A DNA stretch of 34,726 bases from a bacterium (lineage in GTDB: Bacteria > Desulfobacterota > Anaeroferrophillalia > Anaeroferrophillales > Tharpellaceae), in NCBI GenBank assembly GCA_029932385.1, contig JAOZQE010000002.1:12760-47485 (forward strand), given 5' to 3'. The translations under genes and the position numbers were made by a program. Under the pieces are notes generated by a model, which did no database searches, had not been told where the DNA came from, and was given only the letters and a program-made list of their open reading frames with translations. Below are positions 20,508-24,662 of the stretch, piece by piece; within the stretch, counting starts at the first letter, position 1; every line of letters begins with the position of its first letter.

Positions 20508-22832
20508 ATGTTCCGCAAGTCACTAAATTTACTGTCAAGACACAAGGATCACATGAATCAGGACAACCACAACATAATTCAAGATACTACTGAGAAACAG
20601 TTTCTCGGTCAGTTTACAGAAAAAGCCTATTTAGAATACGCCATGTACGTCATCCTCGACCGGGCTCTGCCCTATATTGGTGACGGTCTTAAACCGGTAC
20701 AGCGGCGCATTATCTACGCGATGTCGGAACTCGGCCTTAAAGCCGGAGCTAAATACAAAAAATCGGCCCGAACGGTAGGTGACGTTTTAGGTAAGTTCCA
20801 TCCCCACGGTGATTCCGCCTGCTATGAAGCCATGGTGGTCATGGCCCAGCCTTTCACCTACCGCTATCCACTGGTCGACGGCCAGGGCAACTGGGGCGCT
20901 CCGGATGATCCAAAATCATTTGCCGCCATGCGTTACACTGAATCCCGACTTTCGGCCTATGCCGATCTTCTTTTAAGCGAACTCGGCAACGGTACGGTGG
21001 ACTGGGTTGATAATTTCGACGGCACCTTGAAAGAGCCGGAGCTGCTGCCCGCTCGCCTGCCTAATATTCTCTTAAATGGCAGCACCGGCATTGCCGTCGG
21101 CATGGCGACCGACATTCCGCCGCATAACCTGACCGAAGTCGCGGCGGCCTGCATCCATCTGCTTGACCATCCCCAAGCAACCACGGCGGAGCTCTGCAAC
21201 TGCATCAAGGGGCCGGATTTCCCCTCGCAAACTGAAATTATAACCCCGAATGAAGAGATCATCAGAATCTACGAAAAGGGTTCGGGCTCGATTAAAATGC
21301 GGGCCGTATATCACAAGGAAGATAACGACATCGTTATTACCGCTTTGCCGCATCAAGCCTCCGGTGCCCGGATTATGGAACAGATCGCGGCCCAGATGCA
21401 GGCAAAGAAACTGCCTCTGGTCGCCGACTTGCGGGATGAATCAGACAATGAAGAACCGATTCGCCTGGTCATTATCCCGCGCTCAAACCGGGTTGACAGT
21501 GAACAGTTAATGGCCCACCTTTTTGCGACTACTGATCTTGAAAAAAACTACCGCGTCAATCTCAATCTGATCGCTCTCGACGGCCGCCCCCGGGTTATGA
21601 ATCTGGCCGAGATTTTAAGTGAATGGCTGACCTTTCGTACTGATGTTGTCAGGCGGCGGCTCAACTACCGCTTAGACAAAGTTAAGGCCCGGCTCCATAT
21701 TCTAACCGGTCTGCTGATTGCATTCTTAAATCTTGATGAAATTATTGAGATTATCCGCAACAATGACCGGCCGAAACCGATTCTCATAGAACGTTTTAAT
21801 TTAAGTGAAATCCAGGCGGAAGCCATTCTGGAACTCAAATTGCGTCACCTGGCCAAGCTTGAAGAGATGAAGATTAAGGGTGAAGAGGATGAGCTCGAAA
21901 AAGAGCGCCGGGCCCTCGAAGAGATCCTTGACTCAAGCCGCAAACTGAAAAGTCTGATCCGCAAAGAGATCAAAGCCTGCGCCAAACAGTTCGGCGATAA
22001 ACGCCGCTCGCCCATGGTAAGCCGTTCCGAAGCCCAGGCCCTGACCACGATCGACCTGCTGCCGACCGAAGCAATTACGGTCATTCTTTCGGACAAAGGC
22101 TGGATCAGAGCCGCCAAGGGGCACGATATCAATCCCGAAAAGGTCAACTACCGGGTTGGCGACAGTTTCAAAAGTGCGGTACCGGGCCGCAGTAATCAAC
22201 CGGTAATTCTTCTCGCAGCAAACGGTCGCTGTTACACGCTGCCCTCTCATAACCTGCCTTCAGCCCGGAGTCACGGAGAGCCGTTGAGCGGCCGCCTGCA
22301 ACTTGAAAACAATGCCCCGATAGAGCATATGCTGATGGGGGAAGAGAATAATCTCTTTCTGCTGGCATCTGACGCGGGCTACGGCTTCATCGCCAGACTT
22401 TCTGATCTGATCAGTAAAAATAAGAGCGGCAAAGCCGTTCTAACACTGCCGCCTAACGCCCGGCCCCTGGCCCCGTTAGCGGTCAGAAACCTGCAGGAGG
22501 AAAGCCTGGTAGCCTTAAGCAGCAGCGGCCGCATACTGATCTTCTCACTCACCCAACTACCGCTGCTACCCCGGGGTAAAGGCAATAAAATTATTAATCT
22601 GACCCCAAGCCGCGGCAAGCATAAAAAAGAGATCCTTAAATCCATGGTTATCCTGCCGGACGAGGCAAGCCTGAAAATTTACGCCGGTCGCCGCCATCTG
22701 ACTTTGAAAAAAGAGAGCCTTGAAAGTTATATCGGTAATCGTGGCCGCCGCGGCCAGATGTTGCCGCACGGCCTGCAGCGGGCAGAGCAACTTGAAGTGA
22801 TTACGGCAAAGGAGAGCAGTGATGAAGATTGA
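20508..22832 (+). CDS. parC: DNA topoisomerase IV subunit A (GyrA/ParC family)
   Basis: 774 aa; '[36 protein letters not shown]', '[32 protein letters not shown]', '[11 protein letters not shown]', '[16 protein letters not shown]'. The true start may be the ATG at about 20553 (MNQDNHN…). Confidence 0.95.
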
Positions 22833-23160
22833 TTGGGCCTATATGCGTAAAGGCTGAACTTCATGTAAAAAAGCCCAGGAGTTCCTGGATGAGTACAAAC
22901 TGCAGATCAAAGAGGTAACCGATGCCCGTAAGAAACGGATTGATCACGAAGCTGCCTGGCAGATCTTAAGCCGGGCAGAAACGATAACTGTAGCCAAAGG
23001 CAAAAAACAACTCAATTTCACCCCTACAGACGCTAACCGGGATGAGATTCTCAAGGCGGCAATGGGACCCAGTGGCAATCTGCGGGCCCCGACCTTAAGA
23101 ATCGGCACGCGACTTGTGACAGGATTCAATCCGGAACTCTATCAAACCATATTTTCCTGA
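22822..23160 (+). CDS. Putative ArsC/Spx-like thioredoxin-fold selenoprotein: UGA (22855-22857) read as selenocysteine in a UxxC motif
   Basis: Not in ORF track because of in-frame TGA. Translation: [122 protein letters not shown] 7 nt upstream; start overlaps the parC stop, stop overlaps the next start (TGATG); fills the only un-called 327-nt hole in a dense operon; C-terminal '[26 protein letters not shown]' looks like the ArsC-family (seleno)protein group. Confidence 0.9.
22859..22893 (+). promoter_or_regulatory. Candidate bacterial SECIS element downstream of UGA-Sec
   Basis: Lower stem 22860-22864 (TTCAT)/22889-22893 (ATGAG, includes one G-U), 10-nt 5' bulge, upper stem CCAGG (22875-22879)/CCTGG (22884-22888), apical loop AGUU with G at loop position 2; loop begins 22 nt after the UGA. 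Confidence 0.75.
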
Positions 23161-24662
23161 TGGATGATGCCAGTTTAGAAGTCATGGTTGCGGCCCTGGC
23201 GGAGGAGCTGCAGGAGACCTTCATTACCAAGGTCCACCAGATGACTCCCTACCACCTGCTGTTACGCCTCCGGGGCGGCGGCCGCGGTGGTGAGCGGCGC
23301 CTGCTGATATCGGCGGCACCCCGGGAAGCGGGACTTCATATAAGCTCCCGCCGCTACCTCAACCCTCCCAGACCTTTACGTTTCTGCGCCTACCTCCGCC
23401 ACCATTTTCAGGGAGCAAAAATAAAAACCATCGAAAAGGTCGTCGGCGATCGCATTGTCATCATCAGAGCGGCCCGCCGGCACGAAGAGGAGAAACAACT
23501 CATCATTGAACTTATCGGGAAACGTGGCAACGTTCTCATGACCCGGGGAGAAGAGATGCTGATCGGGGCCTTAATGCTCGAAAAAGGTACGCCCCAGCGG
23601 CTTAAAACCGGCAGCCCCTATCAACTGCCGGAGCCGGTCTGCGAAACTGCCACCGACAACCGGCCCGCCATCTTATTTGAGACTATCGGCATCAACGATT
23701 TCAGAACCCGGCCGGAGCAATTACAGACTCAATATGATAACTGGTTTTTCCCGCACTACAAAAAACATTATGGTGATCTCGAAACTCGGAATTCAAGCAA
23801 AGCGTTACAACAATATCAACGCCGTTTGCAGAAAAGAGTGAAGAAACTGACAGCCGAACAGCAAGAAAAGGCTAAGCATATTGATGACAACCGCTTCGGC
23901 GATCTTCTCAAAGGAGAGATTCACAGACTTAAAAGAGGATGCGAAAAGGTAGTGGTCACCGACTACTACTCTACCACCCTGGAAAAAATCGAACTCAGCC
24001 TCAACCCCGCTTTAAGCCCGTTGGCAAACATGGAAAAGTTTTATAAAAATGCCAAAAAGGCCAAACGTGGACTCAAGCTAATCGGCAAACGCCTGCTGGC
24101 CACCGAACAGGAAAAAATTTATGCGCAGGAGCTCCTTTTTCAACTCAACTGCCTGACCGCTGACCCGGATCGGGAAATCTCGGATGAAGAACAGGAACTT
24201 CTGGAACTGGCTGCGGCTATAACCGAAAAAAGAGGCCGCCGACAGCAGCCGGATGCCGCACCCAGACGACCGCAAGCGCAAGTAAAAAACCGCAATCATA
24301 AACACCGGGGAGTTGAAAGGATCGACGGTATCAGCGGTGGCATCATCTATCTCGGCCGCAATGTCATCGGCAACGAAAACATCTACCGTCACTTAGGATC
24401 TCCGGATGACCTCTGGTTTCATGTCCACAACCATCCCGGGGCCCATGTCCTGCTGAAAAATGCTCCGGGAACTGCGGCATGCGAAGAAGAAAAAATGCAG
24501 GCCGCAGCCCTGGCCGCTACCAACTCAAAGGCTGCCTCGGAAAAGATAGTCGAAGTCACCATGATCCAGGTAAAATACCTGCGCAAGCCCAAAGGCGGCC
24601 GTTTAGGACAACTTCTTTTAAGCGGGCCGCAACAGATCTTGAGAGTAAATAACCATGGATAA
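23160..24662 (+). CDS. NFACT family protein (RqcH/FbpA-like, NFACT-N and NFACT-R domains)
   Basis: 500 aa; 'VMVAALAEELQETFITKVHQ', 'LHISSRRYLNPPRPLRFCAYLRHHFQGAKIKTIEKVVGDRIVII', 'LIGKRGNVLM', NFACT-R 'IYLGRNVIGNENIYRHLGSPDDLWFHVHNHPGAHVLLKN'. Confidence 0.9.
   Translation: MDDASLEVMVAALAEELQETFITKVHQMTPYHLLLRLRGGGRGGERRLLISAAPREAGLHISSRRYLNPPRPLRFCAYLRHHFQGAKIKTIEKVVGDRIVIIRAARRHEEEKQLIIELIGKRGNVLMTRGEEMLIGALMLEKGTPQRLKTGSPYQLPEPVCETATDNRPAILFETIGINDFRTRPEQLQTQYDNWFFPHYKKHYGDLETRNSSKALQQYQRRLQKRVKKLTAEQQEKAKHIDDNRFGDLLKGEIHRLKRGCEKVVVTDYYSTTLEKIELSLNPALSPLANMEKFYKNAKKAKRGLKLIGKRLLATEQEKIYAQELLFQLNCLTADPDREISDEEQELLELAAAITEKRGRRQQPDAAPRRPQAQVKNRNHKHRGVERIDGISGGIIYLGRNVIGNENIYRHLGSPDDLWFHVHNHPGAHVLLKNAPGTAACEEEKMQAAALAATNSKAASEKIVEVTMIQVKYLRKPKGGRLGQLLLSGPQQILRVNNHG

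Follow-up and report, generated by a model that had tools for sequence, protein, structure and literature searches.

The 34,726-nt window of DNA analysed here contains, according to its ORF list, no plus-strand standard ORF of at least 80 aa covering positions 22822–23160, an interval between parC and an NFACT gene. This raises the question of whether the interval carries a gene, how an in-frame TGA within it is read, and which function the product may have.

An uncalled reading frame between parC and the NFACT gene

The first-pass annotation had proposed an un-called gene of 112 codons at this site, and the coordinates, the TGA as sole in-frame stop inside the gene and the U-T-S-C motif all proved to be exact (Table 1). 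The ATG at 22822 lies inside the 3' end of parC with an overlap of 11 nt, and the last letter of the terminal TGA (23158–23160) is also the first letter of the NFACT start codon, ATG at 23160. These overlaps with both neighbors and the ribosome-binding site AAAGGAG, located 7 nt upstream of the ATG, had been described before and are directly seen in the sequence. A purine-rich site 5' of the gene occurs in nearly all orthologs as well. A scan of the window for UGA-interrupted redox motifs returned this gene together with other matches, which look like chance occurrences or frames overlapping called genes. Rfam families and tRNAs had no match within the window, and no plasmid relatives were found.

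Table 1. Positions of the features discussed (in the window, or in the numbering of the locus named)
Feature	Position	Strand	Remark
ArsC/Spx-like selenoprotein gene, NF041106 family	22822–23160	+	112 aa, Sec is residue 12
In-frame TGA, selenocysteine codon (Sec12 in U-T-S-C)	22855–22857	+	predicted from TGA in orthologs and Sec machinery
Cys15 codon of U-T-S-C	22864–22866	+	
Ribosome-binding site AAAGGAG	22808–22814	+	read from sequence
Upstream neighbor parC, topoisomerase IV subunit A	20508–22832	+	ORF list, Pfam
Downstream neighbor, NFACT (RqcH/Tae2-like) gene	23160–24662	+	ORF list, Pfam
Predicted bacterial SECIS hairpin	22875–22888	+	folding, published bSECIS model
Ferritin-like gene, locus L042	2474–2983		
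Ferritin-like gene, locus L043	1896–2627		
Ferritin-like gene, locus L044	2461–2967		
Ferritin-like gene, locus L045	2486–3001		

The selenoprotein gene is flanked by parC and the NFACT gene solely within its own family. As the neighbors vary elsewhere, gene context gives no role. Four Desulfobulbaceae-type loci have a ferritin-like gene upstream of the ortholog (Table 1), possibly hinting at a role related to oxidative stress or iron.

Conservation of the TGA codon and selenocysteine machinery

The selenoprotein gene was identified in 13 of 16 genomes of the family and, in a wider sample of the phylum, above the cut-off in 16 of 297 genomes, in each case with one TGA. The carriers include Desulforhopalus singaporensis as well as metagenome-assembled Desulfobulbaceae and SAR324 genomes. 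From these, an ortholog alignment of 33 rows was obtained, comprising 31 sequences that are distinct around the TGA. All 31 retain the TGA at the Sec site with the frame intact on both sides, and none has a further internal stop. Homologs with Sec at this position, which had been named as a check, were thus present in the form of a TGA in every ortholog found, and no Cys-form ortholog within NF041106 was found among the sampled genomes. A homolog with Cys aligned to the U, which had also been sought, is Spx. The second redox residue (+3) is Cys in all orthologs except L054 (G066), which reads U-A-S-S and therefore has Ser instead of the resolving Cys. Two more distant ArsC/glutaredoxin-like genes outside NF041106 (L057 and L060) likewise have a TGA at the attacking position (UTTC and UATC, respectively).

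Where dS was unsaturated, dN/dS of the codons 3' of the UGA was approximately 0.12–0.25 (dN/dS pairs of 0.046/0.289 in the comparison with the nearest relative and 0.12/0.96 with the second nearest), indicating that this part of the sequence is under strong purifying selection. A pseudogene, or a sequencing or assembly error turning a Cys codon into TGA, would fit the interruption of the gene under the standard code and the draft state of its genome (G000; 206 contigs with 2.35 Mb in total, completeness of 90%). However, the 31 TGA-containing sequences stem from independent assemblies, among them the genome of a DSM strain of Desulforhopalus singaporensis, and selection 3' of the TGA is strong. 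Because the TGA is conserved in independent genomes, we rejected this explanation as highly improbable. Two genomes of the genus or family lack the gene in spite of a completeness of >90%, and both possess selB; the gene therefore appears to be dispensable.

A search of the source genome for selA, selB, selC and selD, as had been suggested, revealed all four, with selB scoring over its cut-off. The gene for tRNA-Sec (selC; L010, G000:C23:55088-55181) shares a contig with the window; the selenoprotein gene lies about 19 kb upstream of it. The selD gene (L019, G000:C99:4142-5068) itself has an in-frame TGA and is probably a second selenoprotein gene. Nothing was found in favor of TGA being a general sense codon in this organism: the TCA-anticodon tRNA of this genome is tRNA-Sec, and parC stops at a TGA at which its orthologs stop too. 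Since this neighboring gene ends normally with TGA, a general sense code is hardly conceivable. Taken together, the conserved TGA, the purifying selection and the Sec machinery uphold the initial proposal of a selenoprotein gene rather than a pseudogene.

According to the published model, a bacterial SECIS (bSECIS) has a loop of 3–9 nt with a G in the first two positions, a stem of 4–16 bp, a distance of 16–37 nt from the UGA to the loop and a free energy of at most -7.5 kcal/mol (2026 review, PMC13188914). The hairpin predicted downstream of the UGA (CCAGG-AGUU-CCUGG) has a stem of 5 bp, the loop AGUU, a distance of 22 nt from the UGA and a free energy of -8.2 kcal/mol, in agreement with all of these rules. 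Where orthologs differ in sequence, a different hairpin forms at roughly this position, such as AAACGCAU-GGC-AUGCGUUU in L041 and CCCAAGA-GGC-UCUUGGG in L055, as read from the sequence. Compared to synonymous recodings, the hairpin was stronger with z < -1 in 19 of 31 orthologs (mean z of -1.43), values that stand individually without a combined probability, the sequences being related. In several distant orthologs the hairpin was no stronger than in synonymous recodings, and against dinucleotide shuffles of the window sequence, which do not keep the protein, it was unexceptional (z of -0.47 to -0.01).

Family, fold and predicted activity

An HMM search with the readthrough translation, a further check proposed at the outset, yielded a match to NF041106 (NCBIfam 'ArsC_rel_Se_1, ArsC family (seleno)protein') at 132.1 bits (E = 1e-38), over the curated cut-off of 85 bits. 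The match covers the profile in full length (1–107 of 107), and assignment of the product to the selenoproteins of this family is well supported. This score and the 31 orthologous sequences with TGA and intact frame lie far outside what chance would give. PF00462 (glutaredoxin) matched exactly at its threshold. At the threshold used, no second ArsC/Spx-family protein was found in the window's own genome. An AlphaFold model computed from an alignment of 11 relatives had a mean pLDDT of 93.6 and places Sec12 and Cys15, the two residues of UxxC, where the first helix begins. Foldseek with this model returned Spx, YffB and ArsC-related structures at the top (TM-score of about 0.55), and a search of solved structures with a profile of the 11 relatives listed Spx first, followed by ArsC-related proteins, glutaredoxin 1 and YffB. 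The family match and the predicted fold agree with the ArsC/Spx-like product anticipated by the first-pass annotation. In the aligned relatives the cis-Pro loop reads GNLRAP, with Ala89-Pro90 at the position of Arg-Pro in ArsC and Spx.

Membership in the ArsC superfamily and a UxxS selenium form of ArsC reported from marine metagenomes would be in line with a selenium-containing arsenate reductase. On the other hand, Pfam ArsC (PF03960) scored 18.4 bits, below its gathering score of 24, and ars genes were absent from the neighbors examined. In addition, the orthologs have Ala instead of the Arg directly before the cis-Pro, a residue that is catalytic in R773 ArsC (Arg94), and their motif is UxxC rather than C/UxxS. 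Due to these two replacements, arsenate reduction is not supported, in accordance with the caution voiced earlier on this point. Past the N-terminal part, E. coli ArsC aligned poorly in MAFFT, and the alignment was used for the N-terminal part only; the equivalents of Arg60 and Arg107 of ArsC fall in the unreliable stretch. Judged by sequence, the NF041106 protein of this locus probably does not act as an arsenate reductase, and a selenium version of that enzyme is very unlikely.

Alternatively, by analogy to Bacillus Spx, the product might be a regulator that binds the alpha subunit of RNA polymerase and uses U-T-S-C as a redox switch in the manner of CTSC. The nearest solved sequences and folds are those of Spx, and U-T-S-C parallels its C-T-S-C. 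However, the readthrough product did not reach the thresholds set for the Spx models (32.4 versus 75 bits for TIGR01617 and 26.2 versus 152 bits for NF009885), it has RAP where Spx has RRP (LRRP at the cis-Pro loop), and the TM-score reached only the value given above. Such a regulator is very unlikely, as is one switched by a selenenyl-sulfide instead of a disulfide. If it did exist, it would tie transcription to selenium and the redox state in anaerobic bacteria.

The explanation that we favor, and consider very probable as a whole, is an NF041106 selenoprotein in which UGA is decoded as Sec and which acts as a thioredoxin-fold oxidoreductase. Based on conservation and the machinery present, the UGA at codon 12 would be translated as Sec by SelB and tRNA-Sec, presumably aided by the SECIS hairpin 22 nt downstream. 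The product would be a selenoprotein with a thioredoxin fold, located in the cytoplasm and belonging to the ArsC/Spx/YffB superfamily. Sec12, positioned N-terminally on the first helix, may provide the attacking selenolate. Resolution of the selenenyl-sulfide would fall to Cys15, and the conserved GNLRAP loop with its cis-Pro is predicted to face this site. Fold and motif suggest that the most likely role is that of a thioredoxin-fold selenol/thiol oxidoreductase, which may act similarly to glutaredoxin or NrdH on a disulfide, an oxidized protein or a small molecule.

Relation to known systems

ArsC-like selenoproteins were reported in 2006 for Desulfotalea psychrophila (PMC1794560), and an 'Arsenate reductase 2, cd03032, UxxC' was described in the Global Ocean Sampling survey of 2008 (PMC2398784) and is probably the same as NF041106. 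The 2026 review lists an 'Arsenate reductase-like protein, NF041106, UxxC' (PMC13188914). Thus, the gene at 22822–23160 is new while its selenoprotein family is already described in NCBIfam and reviews, and little changes beyond annotation. It clearly illustrates how ordinary ORF calling can overlook a selenoprotein gene, and its UGA is conserved throughout a whole candidate lineage.

Compared to the known systems, the product shares with Spx (PDB 3gfk, 1z3e, 6ghb) the fold and the position of the CTSC/UTSC motif but differs by Sec for Cys, RAP for RRP and a score under the Spx family cut-offs. With ArsC (PF03960; E. coli arsC), it has the superfamily fold and an attacking residue at position 12 in common; it deviates by UxxC for CxxS, the missing Arg before the cis-Pro and a score under the gathering threshold. 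Glutaredoxin and NrdH have a similar N-terminal thioredoxin half with a CxxC-type redox motif, whereas here Sec replaces the first Cys and an ArsC/Spx-type middle region is present. Finally, with NF041106 and the 'Arsenate reductase-like protein, UxxC' the match is full-length, with Sec in UxxC and a size of about 110 aa in common; there is no essential difference, the present member being an uncalled gene of a Candidatus Tharpella-like genome.
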